Origin: a virus
Virus record (IMG/VR): IMGVR_UViG_3300032092_000060
Coordinates: 1 to 45,666 of that record
Length of the DNA: 45,666 nucleotides
Direction: 5' to 3' (one strand)
Shown here: positions 8,010 through 45,666 of the stretch, in pieces
How positions within the stretch are numbered: position 1 is the stretch's first letter
Layout: each line of letters starts with the position of its first letter
The notes under the pieces: model-generated
Seen by the model: only the letters and a program-made list of their open reading frames with translations
What the model was told of the DNA's origin: nothing
Database searches by the model: none
Position numbers and translations under genes: made by a program

Positions 8010-9597
8010 TAGGGTTTCCTTCTTGTGCTTGGTTAGCGACATCTTGTTTCATCATACCACCAGCTTGGTTGATGACCTGAGGCCCAAGCCTGTTCATCAT
8101 CTCAAGCTGCATCTGCTGTTGACGTTCAGCGGCAATCTCTTCCTCCGACCTGATGAGGTTGGAGATGTCGAGATCCAGAGCAACAGCACGGCGGCTCATG
8201 TACTCACCAATGTTGAGGTACTGAAGCGCCTGAGGGCCGAGCATCTGAGCAAGACCACCAAGGAACACATCGAGCTTCTGTAGATCGTGTCCACGACCAA
8301 GAGCCTCGATACCAGTCACGATGACAGGGTTGATGCCGTTAGGGAGAGCCGGGAGCTTGAACTCAGCGGCCTTTGGTTTCTGTAGTTCTGACAGTACAGC
8401 CTTGGCAAAGGGAAGCTGGAGGTGCTGCGCGAACATGGCATAGGTGCCACCAAGCGCATCGTCCAGTTCACCAGCCATGTACCTGATCTCCTCTGCGGTG
8501 ACACGATCACCATTCCGCTGGATGGCAGAGTTGAGGAGGAAGGCGAAGGCCAGGCGCTGCTCGAGGGACTTGATCATCTCCATCGAAGCGCGGAGGTCAG
8601 CCCACTTATCGAACTGGAGCATACCCACATCGTCAAGGGAACCAGCGACAACATCACCAGTCTCAGCCTTGGCAAGAGTACGGGCATTCGTGACACCACC
8701 GGGACGCACAAGAACCACGGCCTTACCAGTGACCTTAGAGGCCAGCGTGACAGACTTGGTCAGCGTCTCCAGTGACATCAGGTCACCGTAGTACTGCTCG
8801 ATGTAGGAACGTCCGTAGTCCTCGCCATCCACGAAGGACCAGCGGAGGAACAGGAAGGGCATCTTGTTCTCAGGGTAGGAACCCTCAGAGCCAGCAACCT
8901 TCTTGTTGTTGAACTCTTGTTGTACCTTGTACTGCTTTGCCTTAGCGTCCCACTTGATGTGGGTGTAGAGGAAGAGGTTGGACTTGGATGCACCCTTGGC
9001 ATCAGAGCGGTCACTGGTGAGGTTCTCTCCAGCGAGGGCAATGATTTCCGGGGGAGCGTTGTCTAGGTCTACACCTTCCTTGATCACAGCTTCCGTGACA
9101 AAGCCAGTGGCATCACGGCGCACAACATACTTGTCTAGGGAGAACATCCTGCCGCCGTACACAGCATCGACCAAGAGGCATACGTTGCCGCCTACGATCA
9201 GATGCTTGAAGACGGGGTCCATGATGGGACGGATTGTCTTAGCTTCCATCCACCGCTTCATGCGGTTCTCGACCTTCATTAGACCTTCAGCGACTACTGT
9301 CCTGAGAGCATCTCCTGACGCACCCTGCGCCTGTGCCAGTTCATCTAGCTCCGCATCCCCTAGCTGCATACGAGCAAAGGGAGCATTGACAGGGAAAAGC
9401 GAGAGGAGAAGCTTAGATGCAAGATTGTTCACGCCACGCGCACCAAGAGACTGGTATGGTGTGTCGTATGTTGAACTCTCGTTTGCACCCTCAAGGGGGA
9501 AGAGGTGAGGGATCGTGAGCTTTGCACAGCTTCGCGCCCTCTCCAGATATGTATTCCTCTTCCCTGACAGAGCCTCATACCGACTTGAGGCAGTCAT
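8002..9597 (-). CDS. Portal (head-tail connector) protein, gp8-like
   Basis: 531 residues, the length of T7 gp8 (536). It starts like the family with 'RYEALSGKRNTYLERARSCAKLTIPHLFP' (residues about 6-34). It has 'GARGVNNLASKLLLSLFP' near 52-70, 'FLRWSFVDGEDYGRSYIEQYYGDL' in the middle and 'RDRVTAEEIRYMAGEL'-type helical residues (GDRVTAEEIRYMAGELDDALGG) near 360. It forms the dodecameric DNA gate and packaging motor base. The C-terminus is Gln/Met-rich. It follows the small Pro-rich gene and is the first large gene after the candidate phage promoter at 10008-10023. Confidence 0.95.
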   Translation of the reverse strand: MTASSRYEALSGKRNTYLERARSCAKLTIPHLFPLEGANESSTYDTPYQSLGARGVNNLASKLLLSLFPVNAPFARMQLGDAELDELAQAQGASGDALRTVVAEGLMKVENRMKRWMEAKTIRPIMDPVFKHLIVGGNVCLLVDAVYGGRMFSLDKYVVRRDATGFVTEAVIKEGVDLDNAPPEIIALAGENLTSDRSDAKGASKSNLFLYTHIKWDAKAKQYKVQQEFNNKKVAGSEGSYPENKMPFLFLRWSFVDGEDYGRSYIEQYYGDLMSLETLTKSVTLASKVTGKAVVLVRPGGVTNARTLAKAETGDVVAGSLDDVGMLQFDKWADLRASMEMIKSLEQRLAFAFLLNSAIQRNGDRVTAEEIRYMAGELDDALGGTYAMFAQHLQLPFAKAVLSELQKPKAAEFKLPALPNGINPVIVTGIEALGRGHDLQKLDVFLGGLAQMLGPQALQYLNIGEYMSRRAVALDLDISNLIRSEEEIAAERQQQMQLEMMNRLGPQVINQAGGMMKQDVANQAQEGNPSG

Positions 9598-9613
9598 CAG
9601 TTATTCCTTATTG

Positions 9614-9796
9614 TTATCGCGGGATATTCAGACCACCGACAGGGATGGTCAGCGAACTACGCCCACGCCGCTTGGCAGAAAGCTGATCACCCTCACCATA
9701 GCCCTCGTCAATCACCGGGGTCTGGGGCTTCTCATCAGCGGGGGGTGGCGGGGGTGGCGGGGGGGCCTTGGGTGTCTTAGGGGTTTTCATGCACAT
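9614..9796 (-). CDS. Small proline-rich protein upstream of the portal
   Basis: 60 residues starting MCMKTPKTPKA, followed by a run of eight prolines and, after a charged middle, a basic 'AKRRGRSSLTIPVGGLNIPR' end. Small proteins with a poly-Pro stretch and a C-terminal GLNIP are a recurring feature just ahead of the portal in T7-like phages. Function is unknown, but a virion-associated role is likely. The ATG at 9796 follows GAGGA and lies inside the end of the preceding gene. Confidence 0.75.
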   Translation of the reverse strand: MCMKTPKTPKAPPPPPPPPADEKPQTPVIDEGYGEGDQLSAKRRGRSSLTIPVGGLNIPR

Positions 9797-9992
9797 TGAG
9801 GGGGTCCTCGTTCTGTTGTTCTTCGTAAAGCGCCCTCAGGTGCGAGATGACCTCCATCGCTCCCCTAGCACGGTGTACTTGTGCAGCAATGTGGAAGGGA
9901 TGGGTTTCATCTGTGGTGTGGGGAGGACGGGGGGAGTAGACCTGATCGAGGTAATCGAGGAGGTCCTTGGGAATAGGTGGAGCCTTAAACAT
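9777..9992 (-). CDS. Small hypothetical protein, first gene of the virion operon
   Basis: 71 residues beginning MFKAPPIPKDLLDYLDQVY. It is followed by a His-rich stretch and a helical end. AGGA lies upstream of the ATG. It is the first gene after the 71-bp gap carrying the candidate phage promoter. No function can be assigned. Confidence 0.7.
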   Translation of the reverse strand: MFKAPPIPKDLLDYLDQVYSPRPPHTTDETHPFHIAAQVHRARGAMEVISHLRALYEEQQNEDPLNVHENP

Positions 9993-10007
9993 AACTGTTG
10001 GTTCCTG

Positions 10008-10023
10008 TTATATGGGGGAGAAG
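10008..10023 (-). promoter_or_regulatory. Candidate phage RNA polymerase promoter ahead of the virion operon
   Basis: The sense strand reads CTTCTCCCCCATATAA, then CAGGAACC. The same 16-mer with one or two changes is at 21222-21237 and 30325-30340. A TTAGGG/CCCTAA inverted repeat at 10025-10042 lies just upstream. Its placement at the start of the structural genes fits a T7 class III promoter. No start site has been mapped, so the role is inferred. Confidence 0.6.
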
Positions 10024-10063
10024 ATTAGGGTTTTACCCCTAACCTTCTGACACCATTGGATAA

Positions 10064-23634: not shown

Positions 23635-23679
23635 TCGGTTCTCCTTATTGCCCATGAAATCAATGGGTTACCAAGGGAA

Positions 23680-27423: not shown

Positions 27424-27569
27424 TTTAGTATTCCTCTGTTGCTGTTATCATGGGCTGGCTTGCCCCAATGCCACCCGATGCTAGACCGGATGGCAGTAGA
27501 GTTTCCCGCTTGTGAGATGGTTAGGACACAGTAGCCGCGCGATTGGTGCTCATACGTCCAGTCCCTCAA
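27411..27569 (-). CDS. Possible 52-residue protein with TTG start
   Basis: The frame from TTG 27569 reads MRDWTYEHQSRGYCVLTISQ... and overlaps both neighbouring genes slightly. There is no Shine-Dalgarno. The gap between the genes would otherwise be empty for about 126 bp. Confidence 0.35.
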   Translation of the reverse strand: MRDWTYEHQSRGYCVLTISQAGNSTAIRSSIGWHWGKPAHDNSNRGILKCFQ

Positions 27570-27729
27570 TCTTATCGATTGAGAAGGTATAGGCATGACG
27601 CTGACGTTCCTCCACAATGGAACGGACCTCGTCGTACGAGGAAGCATATACCCGCTCCACATAACGCTTAGGAACGTCATTGTGGAAATACTGGATGGTA
27701 GCAGTCACATAGCAGAGCTTAGGGAGCAT
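27550..27729 (-). CDS. 59-residue early hypothetical protein
   Basis: ATG 27729 follows GAGGAACACAACC. The product begins MLPKLCYVTATIQYFHNDVP and has a basic, aromatic core (RQRHAYTF). It is preferred over the longer ORF in another frame because of the ribosome-binding site. Confidence 0.65.
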   Translation of the reverse strand: MLPKLCYVTATIQYFHNDVPKRYVERVYASSYDEVRSIVEERQRHAYTFSIDKIEGLDV

Positions 27730-27769
27730 GGTTGTGTTCCTCTGTGTGTTATTTGATGGGCCTCATCAG

Positions 27770-27817
27770 TCTCCGCATGACGGAGAGACTAGGGACATGA
27801 GCCCCTAGTTTCGGCCT
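27770..27817 (-). other. Hairpin element A downstream of the GP88 gene
   Basis: Right after the GP88 stop, CGAAAC is followed by stem ACTAGGG/CCCTAGT around the loop GCTCATGT (27788-27809). A second hairpin follows (TCTCCG/CGGAGA, 27770-27786). No T-tract. It shares layout and much sequence with element B at 28632-28653, with paired base changes in the stem. Confidence 0.7.
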
Positions 27818-27830
27818 AGTTGTGGGATGG

Positions 27831-28574
27831 TTAGTCGATAACAAAGCCCGATGTGTCCTGCTTAGCCTTACCCTTGGCGTACAGAGCGACCACATGGCCG
27901 CCCTGAGGGTCAAGGAAGCGCATGTCTGTCTTGTCTCCGTCCACCACATCGCCACCCTTGGCAAGCAAGGCATCAACGCGGGCGCGGTTCCTGAACACAA
28001 TAGCCATGTTAGCCTTGTTTTCCCGCATCCGCGCCATGACCTCACGGGCGAAATCAGGATTAGCCTCACTGTAGCTCAGTGTCAGCGAATAGTTGCTGGG
28101 CAGGGCCTTATCCACCCGCGTGTAAATCTTCGTATAGTCATAGAACTGGACCTCAGGGAACGCGGCCATGAGAGAGGCATGGCGCATCCCGTTACGCTCA
28201 ACAGGATGACCCTTCTCCCACATGATATCACTAGTGCCGTTGAGGCGAACGCAAGGCTTGATCCCCTTGCGCTTGCCGTACGCTACGAAACGTTCAAGAT
28301 CATCCACAAGCTGCGCGAGGAAGGCCGCGCGCTCTGTCATGTATTGCTTCGTCTTGCGAACACGTGCCGCCTGTACAGAGTTCATAGCGCCGCGTCCTGC
28401 CGTGTTAAGACAGCCCTGCCAGCAAGCTGCCAAAGCTGCCATGCTGCACACATTGCCCACACCCGCCTGTGTGAATGGTGCGAGATACATGATGGCAGTC
28501 TCGAATGCGTCCCCGTCACCCTTAACGGTCTTAGCGTTATTGCCGCTGATGATAAGCTTTCCCTTGTAGGCCAT
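27831..28574 (-). CDS. GP88-family early protein
   Basis: 247 residues from ATG 28574. The family pattern is clear: AIMYLAPF, then CSMAALAACWQGCLNTAGRGAMNSVQAARVRKTKQY and KPCVRLNGTSDI. A Cys-rich part may bind metal. The GP88 (phage gene product 88) family is widespread, but its function is not known to me. An upstream extension to 28877 in the same frame runs through a hairpin and a different gene and is rejected. It is flanked on both sides by related hairpins. Confidence 0.8.
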   Translation of the reverse strand: MAYKGKLIISGNNAKTVKGDGDAFETAIMYLAPFTQAGVGNVCSMAALAACWQGCLNTAGRGAMNSVQAARVRKTKQYMTERAAFLAQLVDDLERFVAYGKRKGIKPCVRLNGTSDIMWEKGHPVERNGMRHASLMAAFPEVQFYDYTKIYTRVDKALPSNYSLTLSYSEANPDFAREVMARMRENKANMAIVFRNRARVDALLAKGGDVVDGDKTDMRFLDPQGGHVVALYAKGKAKQDTSGFVID

Positions 28575-28631
28575 TGTCGGTCTCCATCGTGTTTGTTGTT
28601 TTGGTCTCGTCAGTAGAAGAAACACTCCTAG

Positions 28632-28658
28632 ACATGGGACAAGTGCCCCATGTTTCGA
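28632..28658 (-). other. Hairpin element B upstream of the GP88 gene
   Basis: CGAAAC is followed by stem ACATGGG/CCCATGT with loop GCACTTGT (28632-28653), ten bases after the stop of the preceding gene. Compared with element A the stem bases differ in pairs, so pairing is kept. No T-tract follows. Confidence 0.7.
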
Positions 28659-28662
28659 CCTG

Positions 28663-28863
28663 TTAGCGATTGGAATTCGCACCGTATGTAACGTCATTGC
28701 CATCGATATCGACCGTGCCCGGTACAATCCAGACAGACCACGAAGGACTGGAACCGGGCCTCTTGTACGGGTCTCGCACATACAGATTGTTGATGACTGG
28801 ATGCGATGCAGTCCATCCCACGTATTCCTGCACTTTTGAGGAACCATAATATTTAATGACCAT
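28663..28863 (-). CDS. 66-residue first early protein
   Basis: ATG 28863 follows GGAGAG. The product MVIKYYGSSKVQEYVGW... contains RKRPGSSPSWSVWIVPG-type residues (PYKRPGSSPSWSVWIVPGTVDIDG), a predicted beta protein. It is the first gene after the non-coding terminal region, where T7 has host-takeover genes. No family recognised. Confidence 0.65.
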   Translation of the reverse strand: MVIKYYGSSKVQEYVGWTASHPVINNLYVRDPYKRPGSSPSWSVWIVPGTVDIDGNDVTYGANSNR

Positions 28864-29175
28864 GTCATGCTCTCCACTTTTGTGATTGTTTCGACCCTGC
28901 TAGGCCATCGTCAGGCGGTCAGCATTAGACCGCGACAATCACCAGCAAGAGGTCACCCGCGTTTGTTAGACATGCGCCGTTGTGACTTGCGCCGGGATAG
29001 TTCCGGCTTAGGTGATACAGAGGGAATTGATCGGGCCTTGCCTCAGGTCCGCCCCTTCCGCCGGAATGCCGCACTGGATCAAGTAAGCTTGCGCTGCCAG
29101 TGACGGGCCTTGCGTCTTGGGCCTCTGTAGTGGTGCGTTGTTTTCGTCTCGCAATGACGTTTCGTCTATGCCCTA

Positions 29176-29238: not shown

Positions 29239-29280
29239 GCCACTGAAATCATTGGGGCGATAGGTAAAGAATGTTATTGC

Positions 29281-29640
29281 GAGCGATGTGGTCTAGCGTG
29301 TCACTGGTGTGGAGCGATGTGGTCTAGCGTGTCACTGGCGTGTCACTGGTGTGCAGTGATGTGGGCCTGGTGTGTACCTGGTGTGGAGCGATGTGGTCTA
29401 GCGTGTCACTGGCGTGGAGCGATGTGGTCTAGCGTGTCACTGGTGTGGAGTGATGTGGAGCAGCGATGGTGGAGCGATGGTGCAGCGATGTGGAGCGATG
29501 TGGAGCGATGGCGCAGGGATGTGGTCTAGCGTGTCACTGGTGTGGAGCGATGGTGCAGTGATGTGGTCTAGCGTGTCACTGGTGTGGAGCGATGGCGCAG
29601 GGATGTGGTCTAGCGTGTCACTGGTGTGGAGCGATGTGAC
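29281..29640. repeat. Tandem-repeat array of 31- and 42-bp units
   Basis: Units begin GAGCGATGTGGTCTAGCG and end TGTCACTGGTGTG. Four 31-bp-type units come first, then shorter GAGCGATG pieces, then three 42-bp units with an inserted GCGCAGGGAT-type segment. Units of 31 bp break any reading frame. Resembles the short repeats that flank T7's terminal repeat in position, not in sequence. Confidence 0.85.
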
Positions 29641-30324: not shown

Positions 30325-30340
30325 TTATATGGGGGACAAG
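30325..30340 (-). promoter_or_regulatory. Candidate phage promoter after the large terminase gene (phiOR-like position)
   Basis: The sense strand reads CTTGTCCCCCATATAA then CGGGAAC, three bases after the terminase stop. It points into the terminal region, as T7's phiOR does at the right end, where it is linked to packaging and replication. Confidence 0.6.
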
Positions 30341-30343
30341 TTG

Positions 30344-40200: not shown

Positions 40201-41154
40201 ACCTTCAGTAAACACAGAAGCACCAATAGCGATAGGATCGAGGATAGCAGCGGTCACAGACGCTCCCAAACCAGACCATCCTGCTGACGATAGGATACGC
40301 TCACGCTCAAGCTGCTGGTCAAAGACACTAGCCATAGCTTGCATCTCAGCCCTCGACTGGGCTTCACCAAAGGAGTTCAACATCTCCTCAGGGTATACCT
40401 TGCCTTTGGTAAGCTGCTTGAGAGCGTCCTGTCTGGCAATGTTGTCAAAGTTGGGATCAGGATCAAACCCTGACGATGCCAAGTGATCAGCGATCATGTT
40501 CGGTGACCAATCATTGGCAAAGGCAGTGGGCAAGCTCCCAAGATAACCCGGAGGGTCAGGGTTCATGTAGGCGTTGCGGAAGTATTCCTGCTGAGGGCTT
40601 TCATGTTTGACGGGGACAAAGTCAGCCAGCCAGCTATGATCAACTCCCTCTACAGGACTAGAGTTCGTGACACCCTGCCTAGAGGGGGTCATCAGTGGAC
40701 TGGAGGGTGCTGGAGGGACATAAGTCCCCCCAAGCAGAGCCATAGCCTTGTCCTTGTGTCCACCCATCTGGCCGTAGACCTTGTCGGCTACAGTCCCCGG
40801 AGCGCCACCGTTGTTGGCTTCTGAGGCATTGTACTTCCCCGGTCCTCCAGCGTTAATGGTGGAGTACATGTCCAGTAGGCCCATTCCCGGCTTGTAGCCG
40901 TTGTCTACAAGATAGTCGGCAGAAGACTTGACCAGTTCACGGATGGACTTACCTTCCGAGTACCCGTACTTCTGTCGCTGAGGTTCACCCATCTGGATGA
41001 AGCCTTTGTGCTGGCCCCACTGGGTAGTAGGACCAGGTTGCCAAGGATCGAAGGTTCCTCCGGTTTCATACGAAATCACCGTAGCAAAGTCGTGAGGGTT
41101 AGCTCCGATACGCTTGGCTTCTTCGATGATAGCCAACCGGAGTTCGTCTTGCAT
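37222..41154 (-). CDS. Internal virion protein D-like with lytic transglycosylase domain (gp16-like)
   Basis: 1310 residues, close to T7 gp16 (1318). Residues 1-140 form a lytic transglycosylase/SLT-type domain with the catalytic Glu30 in ISYETGGTFDPW. The long remainder is mixed helical, with segments such as 'IYAAKAGRIARIGEAVLMGGV' and 'AMFKAIPSMRLV'. It opens the peptidoglycan and conducts DNA into the cell. It is separated by 2 bp from the gp15-like gene. Confidence 0.92.
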   Translation of the reverse strand: MQDELRLAIIEEAKRIGANPHDFATVISYETGGTFDPWQPGPTTQWGQHKGFIQMGEPQRQKYGYSEGKSIRELVKSSADYLVDNGYKPGMGLLDMYSTINAGGPGKYNASEANNGGAPGTVADKVYGQMGGHKDKAMALLGGTYVPPAPSSPLMTPSRQGVTNSSPVEGVDHSWLADFVPVKHESPQQEYFRNAYMNPDPPGYLGSLPTAFANDWSPNMIADHLASSGFDPDPNFDNIARQDALKQLTKGKVYPEEMLNSFGEAQSRAEMQAMASVFDQQLERERILSSAGWSGLGASVTAAILDPIAIGASVFTEGALAPFIYAAKAGRIARIGEAVLMGGVSNIAAEAAIDAVDNRSRSVSDYALAFGAGAALLGSFKTWSTRGSSLGPRLTETANRMINPRVPNQSTAGAAQVGYATFDNLGSIGSLTDADVPQAAMVNARLDNAAWTGRHHPTARFLGRTLMEDPLGRDAAGNVLNTADVTSVEKAMMYHREVNNLRRSLVTPYTEWAKENGMMAMGMFKTNKSWLAFGDYLGGFEPGTPGYANLASQPAYVRKAVSELDSFYSRWDAHIKNPGEELGKTYRPLPWGSRSNYRPMMVDHDAVLRMIETHGRDKLQRAIAYAMQDVIENLDERLANKFARGYMENLIKSGYGNVDQLNHALAGRDRGELLRFITEELQWDKSDDDVDALIGKIMQKNKDDETSGNPARGKHRTAINYNFVASWVEPNGDEVSIPIRDLFSRNQIQMAERYADQVSGHIALARLVAKDPRTGETMINGITTRSEWNALIRETHEAMIRDGVKPAEADETIRRLEYVYDHITGKPRLGAAANTAWAATMRRVSGTMFVRLMQNMGLYQFQEIAHIPAAVGFHAMFKAIPSMRLVMTAKGAERKALIPELMALQGLGDDSILNFTKGHFLEEAFGETRGNAAGRMFDNALAVGKRVTNKISLFNMANSMSHQMAMTTIAQRFGLLAMKHKDKLIAKQTPRMKAVTKSKVVNGKVVQETTEVPVLDDLGKPVFDTSYDFKVDDINSWFGKKDADRMRMMGFDDKSLAEVLKNIYQNAEFTQGGRLVYMNFEKWDPVARARFARALYSWTGRAIQRNDVGSLAKWMTTPLAGMVFQFRSFVMGAWGKQTLHNIANFDPRALAVLMSQVGAGTMMYYLQGKARSLGKEDPDEYMDDTILKGNLTDTQAEALVLGGIGRTGASSILPMLVDTAMPWITGDSLFANSRSSTQASDLIFGPPVVSTYNDVAATLTAVGDMVREGRTPSQPELRQMGRLLGVWLPFTIGLDKVIQDYPKYTPKDPK

Positions 41155-41156
41155 TG

Positions 41157-44100
41157 TTACTCCTGTTTGTTAGGAATAGCTCCCCTATCCTTGAGGAACT
41201 GTATTACTTCTTCGTCGCTCTTGTCCTGTAGCTCAGGGAAGAACGACCGTGCAGCATCGATGCGCTCATCCAGAGTAGCCGTGCCTTCTTGGACCTTAGT
41301 GGTCGGAGAAGCATCGATCTCCTTCTGTGTAGCCGTAGACACAGCTTCATCGGTAGACTTGGCGTTGGCCGCGTCTTCCATCTCGATGATCTCAGCAGGG
41401 GTTGCTGGACGCTTGATGACCTTCTCAGTACCCGGAGAGAAGAATGTATCGATACCGCGACCATCGATCACGATCTCCTCGATCATGACCTTCTTACCAG
41501 CAGCATTGATAAACCGTTCCTGATAGACTTCAGCAGGGATTGTAGCGCGGGCATTACGAACCTTACGGAAGGCGTCAACGTCATCCTTGCGAATGACAAA
41601 CGTCTTCGTGCGGTCCACTTCTCCGCGCGGTCCCTTGGCATAGAAGGGGTTGCCTGTGTTCATGTCGATAAGAGCGTATCCATCAGGCACCTCGATCAAC
41701 GTGACGTTCTCAAGGTCTTCCACTGGCGGGTACATCTTGCCACCAATCTTTGGAACGATGTCCTCGATGATGCCCTTGATGTCCTCTCCTGTGTTATCCC
41801 CCCACCCCATGATCCGCTTGGGGATGTACATACGACCAACCTTCACGTGGTTGGTGTTCACCCACTCAGCAGCCTGTTCGACAACACTCTCATCCTTGAC
41901 ATCAGCATCAGCAAGGGCAAGCGTCTGGAGCCTCTTACGGAGAAGCTCACCACCTTGAACGCTTCCCATTCGTTCCACAAAGGACGCATTATGGTTCCAC
42001 CCATTGCGGACTTGCTCGACATCTGCGAATGCACGGCCAGGTCTGTCAGGATCACTCATCAGCATATAGGTCTGACGAAGAGCTTCCTCGTTGGTTAGTC
42101 CTGAGGACTTCTTGAGGGCAAAGACATCCACGAACGTCCTCCCACCCTCAGGGGTGATAGAGTTGACGAACGGGATTTCACCTGTCTCCAGCAGTGCTCC
42201 AAGCAGTTCAGCGGTAGCCTTGTCCTGATCGGACAGTCCTTCCTTCAACTTCTCTGCGCTATTAGCCAGCATCAGTTGGGAAATCTGATCCTTCCACCTG
42301 TCTGTCTTCAGTTGTCCCTTCTTGAGGTAGGGCGTCATGAATAGGACCTGTGCTTGGATGTTACCGGGGAACTTCTGTTCAGCGGCTGCGAACAGAGCGT
42401 TGGTAGCTTCCTTCTTCACCTCTTCAGCGGAGAAGGTAGTGGTCTTACCGGGTTCCTTGTCGCTGGCGATTTCCACACCGTCGATCAGGGCAGACACTCC
42501 TGCACCACTGGAGGAACCAGTCTCGATATCACTCAAGACCTCCCCAATGACAGAGTGTTTCTGTTCAACATGCGCCTGTTGCGCCTGTACCTTCTGCTGG
42601 GCTTTGATCTTCTCAGCTTCAAACCGCTGCTTTAAGTTCATCAACTGATCAGGGGTGAAGTAGTCTTCAGCCTTCTTCTGGAACTCATCCATCTGTGCGG
42701 AGGTTGCCGTCAGAGGGTTAGCCATGAACGTATTGTTGAACTCAGTCTCAAGCTCAGACGTTACCTTCCAGTTCCGTACACGGAAGTTGGTGTCCATAGC
42801 ATCGAGTAGCGACTGTGCCTGAGTGGTGTATTTGGGATTGTCGTAGAGAGAAGGGATTTCACCAGTGGAGGGAGCATCAGAAACAACTCCACCAGCCATG
42901 CCTTCAATGATGCCTTCCTTGTACCACTGAGGTGCGCTTCCGTTGTTGCTCTCTGACTTGTTCCACATGACGTAGATACCATCAGCGACCTTGGCGTTTG
43001 GGCTGTTGGTATACCCTTCAGCCATATCGACATGGATGGCGTTCATTCCATCATAGCCAATGATACGCTTGAAGCCAGCAGCGGAGAGGGACGCTACAAG
43101 CTTCTTCTTCTCAGCGTCAGTCATCCCTGCCATTGAGATGTCCAAGGCGTCTCCGTGCATATGGCGGCTACCCTTGGCACCACCAACAGAAGCATTGTAC
43201 TCCTTGCTACGGTGACCTGACTGCACTACCAGTTCACGACCAAACATCGCAGAAGCCTTACGGGCGCGATCCGCCACATCAGACTTCACACCAGCCATCT
43301 GCCACTGCTTGTCGTAGCGGATAGAGCCACCAGTGGTGTTCCTCGCGGGAGCAGTATGGTCCACAGGACGAGGCATCTTCAGAAGACGTTCAGCGAGTTC
43401 TCTGTCTTCCTTGGTTGCGTTAGGGTTGTTCGTGAGGCTTTCGACATACCCAAGGATCAGCTTGTCTCTGTCCTCGCCACTCATGCTCTTCCAAGGAGCA
43501 AGGCTCTGGAGTTCGCGGAAGATGCTTGCTGACATGATGGAAGGGGAGATACCCTTGTTCTGTCCGTCAGCAACCATGTTGGTAATATGGGAGGTGATAA
43601 GATCAACCTTCTCAGCGGCAAACTGCTTCGACGTTTCCACGCCATGAGCATTAGCCATCCGAGAATTATAAGGCTCCACAGCTTTGTTGAAGTACCCAAT
43701 GAACTTCTCGTCGTTGGCATAGCCGGGGAAGTTCTCTTGAACGAACTGAGCCTGTTTACCAGACACGAAGTCTTGGAAGCTCCCCTGCTTGTCCCACTCT
43801 TCGTAGAGCGCAGGGAGGTTTTCACTCCACTTTACTGCCATCTTGTCAGCGAACATCAACTGCATCTGTTCAGCACTGTACTTCTGAGGATTAGCAGCCA
43901 TGTCTGCCATCAACTCATCAGGGGACTGGCCCATCGCATAGTTGGCGGCAGTGGTTCCTGCCTTGTCGCGCTCCTGCTTTGCGTAGGCAGCGTTGTTTGC
44001 AGCGAAGCGACCAAAGCTGGTACTGAGACCTGACAGGGCATCAGCGATACTCATGAGGTTCTTCCCGGCCCCTTCACGATTGACGGGTGCGACAGGGACT

Positions 44101-44177
44101 ACATTAACTACAGGAGCGGGATTAAGTTGCCCTTCCCGTTCAAACTCGCGCACCTGTACGCGACCAGGACTTGCCAT
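41157..44177 (-). CDS. Internal virion protein C-like with M15-type peptidase domain (gp15-like)
   Basis: 1006 residues, longer than T7 gp15 (747). Residues about 295-390 form an M15A peptidase: SGHRS at 320-324, the zinc motif SxHxxGxAxD at 337-346 (His339, Asp346), and IHVD at 381-384 (His382). The order and spacing match VanY/M15A enzymes, which cut D,D or L,D peptidoglycan peptides. The rest is helical, as in ejection proteins. A second wall-active domain beside the gp16-like transglycosylase is the main oddity. Confidence 0.9.
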   Translation of the reverse strand: MASPGRVQVREFEREGQLNPAPVVNVVPVAPVNREGAGKNLMSIADALSGLSTSFGRFAANNAAYAKQERDKAGTTAANYAMGQSPDELMADMAANPQKYSAEQMQLMFADKMAVKWSENLPALYEEWDKQGSFQDFVSGKQAQFVQENFPGYANDEKFIGYFNKAVEPYNSRMANAHGVETSKQFAAEKVDLITSHITNMVADGQNKGISPSIMSASIFRELQSLAPWKSMSGEDRDKLILGYVESLTNNPNATKEDRELAERLLKMPRPVDHTAPARNTTGGSIRYDKQWQMAGVKSDVADRARKASAMFGRELVVQSGHRSKEYNASVGGAKGSRHMHGDALDISMAGMTDAEKKKLVASLSAAGFKRIIGYDGMNAIHVDMAEGYTNSPNAKVADGIYVMWNKSESNNGSAPQWYKEGIIEGMAGGVVSDAPSTGEIPSLYDNPKYTTQAQSLLDAMDTNFRVRNWKVTSELETEFNNTFMANPLTATSAQMDEFQKKAEDYFTPDQLMNLKQRFEAEKIKAQQKVQAQQAHVEQKHSVIGEVLSDIETGSSSGAGVSALIDGVEIASDKEPGKTTTFSAEEVKKEATNALFAAAEQKFPGNIQAQVLFMTPYLKKGQLKTDRWKDQISQLMLANSAEKLKEGLSDQDKATAELLGALLETGEIPFVNSITPEGGRTFVDVFALKKSSGLTNEEALRQTYMLMSDPDRPGRAFADVEQVRNGWNHNASFVERMGSVQGGELLRKRLQTLALADADVKDESVVEQAAEWVNTNHVKVGRMYIPKRIMGWGDNTGEDIKGIIEDIVPKIGGKMYPPVEDLENVTLIEVPDGYALIDMNTGNPFYAKGPRGEVDRTKTFVIRKDDVDAFRKVRNARATIPAEVYQERFINAAGKKVMIEEIVIDGRGIDTFFSPGTEKVIKRPATPAEIIEMEDAANAKSTDEAVSTATQKEIDASPTTKVQEGTATLDERIDAARSFFPELQDKSDEEVIQFLKDRGAIPNKQE

Positions 44178-44722
44178 TAAGCGTATCCTCTCATCTGGTT
44201 GTAGGTTTGAGCAGCCTCAAGTCCCTGTCCAGCGATGCGGATAGCAGCATCCAAGAAGGACGGTTTGGTAGGCTTAGGCATGGAATTTATCTGCGACTGC
44301 GCTTGGTTCTTGGTCTGATCCATAGAGGCCCAGAGGTAGTCACGGTTCATTTGATAGTTCTGATCGACAGCGTCATTGAACCGTCCCTGCTTCGTGTAGT
44401 AAGAGGCAAGGAACTGGTTGACTGATAGACCCTGTACGCCGCTCTCGCCAGCAGCGACAGCAGCCGTAGCGCGGCCTTCCATCGCATCGACGTTGGCGTT
44501 CTGCTTCTCCATTGAAGCCGCTGCGCTTTCCTGACGCCAGCGGTTCTGAGTGTGCGCGTACTGTTCACGCGCCATCTGTTGTGCGTTCTTGGCGTTCTCG
44601 TTGTACATGGCTTGCTGCGCCTTGTACTGCTGTTGCTGTCCGATGAAACCAGCCACAGTGGAGGCTGCACCGATTGCAAGCTGCAAGCCCGCCATAGCAC
44701 CAGCACCTAGCATGATGCACAT
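44177..44722 (-). CDS. Internal virion protein B-like, second copy from contig overlap
   Basis: Same 181-residue sequence as 155-700, displaced by 44,022. It is one gene in the genome, shown twice by the contig. Confidence 0.85.
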   Translation of the reverse strand: MCIMLGAGAMAGLQLAIGAASTVAGFIGQQQQYKAQQAMYNENAKNAQQMAREQYAHTQNRWRQESAAASMEKQNANVDAMEGRATAAVAAGESGVQGLSVNQFLASYYTKQGRFNDAVDQNYQMNRDYLWASMDQTKNQAQSQINSMPKPTKPSFLDAAIRIAGQGLEAAQTYNQMRGYA

Positions 44723-45169
44723 TTAGTTGCTCCTGTAAAACCTATAGAACGGGACATTACGATCAGTCCCAATGAAGTGAGGGGTGAACTCGATTGTGAA
44801 CCCCATGTAGGATAGCCACATGACATGGGTAGAGTTCCTCACATCAACGTAGTTTGTTAGGTAGCCGTACCTGTCAGTCCATTCACGGACCTTCTTCCGG
44901 CCTTCCTTGACGAGAGACTTGCCATACTTGCTGACAAGGGGAGTACCGAGCATCCACGGTATACCCTCCCCAACACCAGCGATGAGAATAGGATGACCAT
45001 CAGGGCGGGTAGCGATGAACGCTTCGTCGCTGGTACGGATCGAATACTCGATGGCAGACTTCTCGTCCCATCCAAGCATAGCAGTGATCTCGTTCTTATC
45101 TGCTTCACGGAGAAGCGGGGCGATGATGGCAGCGTCCATTACAGACGCCGCCCTGATGATGTAGGTCAT
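44723..45169 (-). CDS. Internal virion protein A-like, second copy from contig overlap
   Basis: Same 148-residue sequence as 701-1147. It is one gene in the genome. Confidence 0.85.
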   Translation of the reverse strand: MTYIIRAASVMDAAIIAPLLREADKNEITAMLGWDEKSAIEYSIRTSDEAFIATRPDGHPILIAGVGEGIPWMLGTPLVSKYGKSLVKEGRKKVREWTDRYGYLTNYVDVRNSTHVMWLSYMGFTIEFTPHFIGTDRNVPFYRFYRSN

Positions 45170-45666
45170 ATTCTCCTAGTCTTGGGATACCAGAGACCAA
45201 CCCATTCGGCACTGATGATGCCTGATGGGACAGCCTGGTCATTGAGGATGTCGATTGCTACGCGAGTGTTCTCGCACTTCACGGGGAAGGAGTAGTCACT
45301 CTCCTCCAAGACAAGCTCCTTAGTCTTCATCATGGGATCATCAAGTGACCATGCGTTGACTGCGCTGTCGTAGGTGAACTTGGCCCTGTTCTCAGGTGTC
45401 ACCTCTACAGTGAAGTAGGCGGTGTCGGAGAACGTGAGCCTCATACGGAGGATTTGAGTGCGGCCTTCAGTGATAACAAGAGGACCACTATCCCCGTTCT
45501 TCCTGACATACAGCGGGGAGAACCTGTAGCGGAACGTATACGGGAAGCCAGCGTAGACCTTCTCGTTTCTGGTATCACCCTCCAGTCGGATGGTGGTTCC
45601 AGTGAAGCTGTCTACCAGCAACTTGTGTCCCGGCTCGTAGGCTCCAGTGCCAGAGTAACCAGTCCA
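45166..45666 (-). CDS. Nozzle protein gp12-like, C-terminal fragment at the window edge
   Basis: Corresponds to 1144-1644 of the full gene. It carries one silent and two conservative changes (Thr to Ala and Ile to Val) near the contig end. The 5' part is outside the window. Confidence 0.88.
   Translation of the reverse strand, partial: WTGYSGTGAYEPGHKLLVDSFTGTTIRLEGDTRNEKVYAGFPYTFRYRFSPLYVRKNGDSGPLVITEGRTQILRMRLTFSDTAYFTVEVTPENRAKFTYDSAVNAWSLDDPMMKTKELVLEESDYSFPVKCENTRVAIDILNDQAVPSGIISAEWVGLWYPKTRRI

Follow-up and report, generated by a model that had tools for sequence, protein, structure and literature searches.

Two similar hairpins stand on either side of the GP88 gene in a 45,666-nt viral sequence (hereafter the window), raising the question of what RNA element they form and why it is paired around one gene. 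The first-pass annotation of 27770–28658 described a shared CGAAAC, a 7-bp stem, an 8-base GCNCNTGT loop and two pairs that change on both sides (CTA/TAG versus CAT/ATG). All of these are present on the minus strand, the coding strand around the hairpins, which read CGAA-ACTAGGG-GCTCATGT-CCCTAGT (hairpin A) and CGAA-ACATGGG-GCACTTGT-CCCATGT (hairpin B). The name of the gene is also correct (PF17338, E 5.6e-46).

The window derives from a T7-like phage, as judged from its single-subunit RNA polymerase, for which there are many T7-like relatives; it also encodes a tyrosine integrase, a MarR-type regulator and endonuclease I. Sequence is repeated at the two contig ends (1–300 equals 44023–44322); positions 1–1644 and 44023–45666 are near-copies, indicating a circular or terminally redundant genome of about 44.0 kb. 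The RNA polymerase gene lies at 23655–21256, and all three elements described below are upstream of it, in the presumed early region, where the order of transcription is leader, type III element, 66-aa ORF, B, GP88, A and 59-aa ORF. Imperfect tandem repeats (GGTCTAGCGTGTCACTGGTGTGGAGCGATG and variants, spaced about 42 nt) precede the early-region leader at 29270–29640 and are present in the close relatives L002 and L003 too. Sigma-70-like promoters show no excess over chance in the leader.

28882..28942, minus strand: putative hammerhead ribozyme, type III, in the leader, GTGATTGT.C^GCGGTCTAATGCTGACCGC.CTGACGA(T).GGCCTAGCAGGGTC.GAA.ACAATCAC
28663..28863, minus strand: 66-aa ORF, the sole ORF of a predicted 303-nt fragment (28933–28631)
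28603..28660, minus strand: putative hammerhead ribozyme B, type II, GGTC.GAA.ACATGGGGCACTTGTCCCATGT.C^TAGGAGTGTTTCTTCTA.CTGACGA.GACC
27831..28574, minus strand: GP88 gene (PF17338), the sole ORF of a predicted 844-nt fragment (28630–27787)
27759..27816, minus strand: putative hammerhead ribozyme A, type II, GGCC.GAA.ACTAGGGGCTCATGTCCCTAGT.C^TCTCCGTCATGCGGAGA.CTGATGA.GGCC
27550..27729, minus strand: 59-aa ORF (MLPKLCYV...), immediately downstream of A

The hairpins are probably stem III of type II hammerheads

A second hairpin, stem I, lies directly 3′ of each noted hairpin and is followed by CTGATGA in A and CTGACGA in B, and the final 4-nt strand pairs with the 4 nt that precede GAA. Read 5′ to 3′, the parts of both elements are open stem II, GAA, stem III, GUC, the predicted cut, stem I, CUGANGA and stem II. 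Both contain the CUGANGA and GAA core strands, the A15.1–U16.1 pair and H17; stem II is open and stems I and III are closed by loops, as in the type II permutation. Judging from these features, A and B are very probably type II hammerhead ribozymes, of which the noted hairpins are stem III alone, preceded in the early-transcript leader by a type III hammerhead. The CGAAAC shared by A and B is accounted for by the catalytic GAAA strand. Cutting is predicted between 27787 and 27786 in A and between 28631 and 28630 in B. The annotated range was essentially right, except that the elements are longer (A, 27816–27759; B, 28660–28603) and that the third, at 28942–28882, lies outside it.

All three stems vary between A and B with pairing preserved, stem II being GGCC/GGCC in one and GACC/GGTC in the other. 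RNA folding lengthens stem III of both elements to 9 bp with a 4-nt loop, and the minimum-free-energy (MFE) structure is the three-helix hammerhead for A (z −3.84) and for B (z −2.77). As the first-pass annotation had observed, the elements follow stop codons: B begins 2 nt past the stop of the 66-aa ORF, and A begins 14 nt past the stop of GP88.

Pairing of loop I with the tail 3′ of stem II is common, not universal, in type II hammerheads. In A this pairing amounts to 3 bp and in B to 5 bp, the latter expected given an A-rich tail, and neither is convincing; it is clear in Rhizobium phage TRX32-1 (6 bp) and in locus L154 (5 bp). Across the hammerhead set, this pseudoknot shows no enrichment (2.95 versus 2.83 bp).

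The resemblance of ACTTGTCCC to a promoter, proposed for B, is explained by the loop and stem III of B. Only two exact copies of ACTTGTCCC occur in the window (28636–28644 and 30333–30341), and matches with at most one mismatch number 27 against 12.3 expected, most of them on the other strand; we rejected the promoter reading on these grounds. The minus-strand copy at 30333–30341 lies just past the terminase gene, is followed by CCATATAACGGGAACGGGG, and is a possible promoter or end-site motif.

A type III element in the leader

The type III copy (28942–28882) has an 8-bp stem III and a predicted cut between 28934 and 28933. Its core is complete, with one extra U between CUGACGA and stem II, and its MFE structure is a competing fold rather than the hammerhead. 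The copy is conserved in L003 with two differences, one at the free N7 position and the other turning a G-U pair into G-C. A single extra base between CUGANGA and stem II recurs in otherwise full hammerheads (window 28882–28942, L003 2328–2392, L101 1357–1409, L171 478–534 and L085 39598–39660).

Descriptor searches and covariation

A descriptor covering all three hammerhead permutations gives exactly three matches in the window, all on the minus strand, which together form a gene-flanking cluster around the 66-aa ORF and GP88. The initial type II-only descriptor matched only A and B in the window and gave no match in 60 shuffled windows, and allowing a one-base core change revealed no further hammerheads in the window. 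At gathering score, Rfam matches none of the three window elements, and up to E 10 its curated covariance models match neither A nor B. This miss seems to reflect model sensitivity rather than a core defect, since Rfam at gathering scores also detects none of the arrays in five SAR11 phages (see below).

The first-pass annotation was right in claiming a selected RNA structure, and thin in its evidence, two changed pairs between two copies. Covariation among type II elements supports the claim. Of the 17 pairs compared across 15 such elements, A and B among them, 14 show changes on both sides; none of 500 shuffles approaches this, and the covariation spans all three helices. Standard pairs fill 99.2% of cells, a figure that is partly built in because the rows besides A and B were gathered with a pairing-demanding descriptor; the variety of pair types is not built in. 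A slid-structure control gives 34–40% pairing.

The GP88 block differs among close relatives

The same elements are present in L002 (99% identical) and L082 (100%), as far as each sequence reaches. L003 has the type III copy and A, and lacks B and the 66-aa ORF between the type III copy and GP88. A comparison of GP88 in the window with that in L003 shows 98 differences over 744 positions (13% diverged), whereas the flanks are nearly identical, with 1 difference in 158 positions of the leader and 0 in 275 from the GP88 stop into the next gene. Because GP88 is divergent between near-identical flanks, and the 66-aa ORF and B are missing from L003, the GP88 block looks like an exchanged cassette with its joints at the hammerheads. 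We dropped the identity of A in L003 as a sign of constraint, as near-identical flanks and cassette-like exchange make it uninformative.

Rhizobium phage TRX32-1, obtained by lysogen induction, encodes a GP88 that is 60% identical and carries a type II hammerhead 25 nt past the GP88 stop (Rfam 32 bits, cut-off 37), as well as a type I hammerhead, found by eye, at about 40330–40392. GP88 was nevertheless rejected as the partner that defines the element: among 80 GP88 loci of other phages, we found no convincing hammerhead save in near-copies of the window phage, and one weak match (L079).

Arrays upstream of the polymerase genes of T7-like and SAR11 phages

In T7-like phages, 105 distinct sense-strand candidates lie upstream of the RNA polymerase gene, with few matches elsewhere. 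L083, whose polymerase is 42% identical, has five early-region hammerheads, three of which pass the Rfam type II cut-off (RF02276); its type III copy also matches an Rfam hammerhead model, but this copy and the type I copy score under their cut-offs. With the final descriptor, 162 loci with T7-like polymerases give 44 sense matches upstream of the polymerase and 3 elsewhere, compared with 2 in an equal amount of shuffled sequence. In this set, 13 of the 97 loci with at least 3 kb upstream have a match, and the arrays are not universal. A further 69 loci near SAR11 phage polymerases give 91 upstream sense matches and no antisense match, and at least one upstream hammerhead is present in 30 of the 41 such loci having at least 1.5 kb upstream. 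Five cultured SAR11 phages carry the following arrays:

HTVC031P: III, II, I
Eistla: I, II, I
HTVC109P: II, I, II
HTVC019P: III, I
HTVC168P: I, II

No array was found in the regions sampled from T7, LUZ100, CRP-125, ProddE, RHEph08 and Vibrio phage 526E57-1. Downstream matches in six pelagiphage loci proved to be one repeated coding sequence with 3-bp stems and were judged chance; a long-loop match in L229 is probably chance as well, and another in L250 is doubtful.

Mesorhizobium phage Lo5R7ANS (L084, KM199771) carries an annotated RtcB-type RNA ligase at 9397–10050, upstream of the polymerase gene. The substrates of RtcB-type ligases are the ends that hammerhead cutting makes. We rejected a link between RtcB and hammerheads: the ligase was found in Lo5R7ANS alone, and that genome has no convincing hammerhead.

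Permutation appears to follow position

Type III is strictly the leading element in every one of the 19 distinct arrays that combine it with another type. Grouped by polymerase identity, these arrays reduce to 3 lineages at a 50% threshold and 8 at a 90% threshold, and so do not count as 19 separate events. The order III, II, II, II is seen in a Devosia prophage, which was reached via Rfam type II matches in the genome and whose terminase is T7-like (55%). Placement relative to stop codons also separates the types. Specifically, 61 of 78 type I and II elements start between −15 and +20 nt from an upstream stop codon, as do none of 27 type III elements and 9.3% of random positions in the same regions. 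As far as sequence comparison indicates, the positional rule appears to span many related marine and soil phages.

In SAR11-phage type I hammerheads, the first stem I strand (GTAACA) often contains the stop of the upstream gene (distances −4 to −1), as in L253 3042–3105 and L247 488–551. The terminating ribosome would then sit on the ribozyme, and cutting may be coupled to translation in these phages.

Alternative explanations

The first-pass annotation had come close in suggesting a processing site, and went astray in proposing an RNase III site or a protein-binding hairpin. That A and B are plain hairpins of this sort, or mRNA-stability hairpins, is exceedingly improbable: they are real hairpins located after stop codons, but this leaves unexplained why GAAA, CUGANGA and GUC are invariant, why two more stems are present and why all three helices covary, and the presence of stems I and II plus both core strands led us to reject a simple hairpin or RNase III site. 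A very improbable reading, too, is that they are former hammerheads, retained by descent after cutting was lost. Activity is predicted here from sequence, and both the inserted core base and the competing fold of the type III copy would suit such relics; A and B, however, retain all core nucleotides and stems, with compensatory changes between copies.

Two further readings start from the arrangement around GP88, and we consider both very unlikely. With a same-strand hammerhead pair around one gene, GP88 RNA could be circularised or religated in the manner of viroid-like RNAs, if the 3′ half of B and the 5′ half of A on the excised RNA formed a joint hammerhead and ligated; the RtcB-type ligase annotated in the early region of the related Lo5R7ANS would suit such a cycle. 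However, stem II of the joint element (GACC with GGCC) is mismatched, most arrays mix types, Lo5R7ANS is without a convincing hammerhead, and circular products sought in similar clusters were not found (PMC3088659). The elements might instead be mainly DNA joints for swaps of early-gene cassettes, with ribozyme activity secondary, as the divergent GP88, the near-identical flanks and the missing 66-aa ORF and B of L003 would fit; yet the shared words are short, and recombination has no need of the compensatory changes that keep the stems paired.

A model for early RNA processing

Hammerhead cutting leaves a 2′,3′-cyclic phosphate and a 5′-OH. If A, B and the type III copy are self-cutting hammerheads, as we prefer to read them, each would fold and cut during synthesis of the early polycistronic RNA, giving an upstream piece that ends in the cyclic phosphate and a downstream piece that starts with the 5′-OH. 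Besides the leader and the remainder, the predicted pieces are an RNA of 303 nt carrying the 66-aa ORF and one of 844 nt carrying GP88. After cutting by types I and II, the stem III hairpin would stay on the 3′ end of the upstream mRNA; after cutting by types II and III, the stem I hairpin would stay on the 5′ end of the downstream mRNA. A cut in the leader need only protect the downstream end, for which type III would place a hairpin on the new 5′ end only, and cuts right after stop codons would protect the 3′ end of the preceding gene, for which types I and II would leave a hairpin on the new 3′ end. The observed order of types fits these different needs of the first and later cuts. The array would process early RNA much as host RNase III processes that of T7, with no need of the host enzyme.

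The model builds on the sequence, structure, covariation, positions and ordering of the hammerheads reported here, from which we infer that the three elements cut inside cells and that the phage gains from the protection of its mRNA ends. The opposite effect is possible by analogy: the 5′-OH made by self-cleavage of the glmS ribozyme exposes its mRNA to degradation by RNase J1 (PMC3997798), and the 5′-OH made here could likewise destabilise RNA.

Relation to known systems

Natural type II hammerheads, and hammerhead clusters flanking prophage genes, were described by Perreault et al. in 2011; the same work showed cutting in vitro for three native phage clusters and in E. coli for one, and proposed that phage transcripts are cut into gene-length mRNAs (PMC3088659). 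The window hammerheads add members to this gene-flanking phage kind. A and B resemble the type II hammerhead (RF02276; PMC3088659) in having the same core strands, an open stem II with stems I and III closed, a GUC cleavage triplet and a phage early-gene setting, but differ in going unrecognised by the Rfam model and in lacking a convincing loop I–3′ tail pseudoknot. In the Agrobacterium tumefaciens ardA triple (PMC3088659), single genes are likewise flanked by several hammerheads, and the phage region concerned also carries a MarR regulator and an integrase. Cutting of the triple was demonstrated in vitro and in E. coli, whereas the window elements are predicted to cut; the latter, in addition, flank the 66-aa ORF and GP88, sit in a T7-like early region and are ordered by type.

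T7 early RNA has five sites of cutting by host RNase III, which yields mono- and dicistronic mRNAs (PMC4858673). The arrays lie in the matching place, between early genes of a polymerase-encoding podovirus, but are predicted to cut themselves without protein, unlike the T7 sites, which need host RNase III (PMC4858673); the T7 early region contains no hammerhead. Viroid-like RNAs and retrozymes share with the window two hammerheads bracketing one RNA unit, whereas the window holds DNA phage genes and mixed types, and nothing in it points to an RNA replication or retrotransposition cycle. In the open-licence literature, we found no report of the type-ordering rule, of stop-codon placement by type, or of SAR11-phage hammerhead arrays.

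It is quite possible, and we propose tentatively, that in many T7-like phages, including those of SAR11, ordered self-cleaving ribozymes replace host RNase III, with the permutation set by position and hence a functional trait rather than an accident. From the arrays comes a simple rule that relates permutation to position along the transcript and can be tested in cultured phages, and the rule bears on the role of hammerheads in phages and on why three circular permutations exist. Rfam searches overlook most of these ribozymes, so the number of hammerheads in phage genomes is underestimated. The arrays suggest a route by which T7-like phages may process early RNA without a host enzyme.
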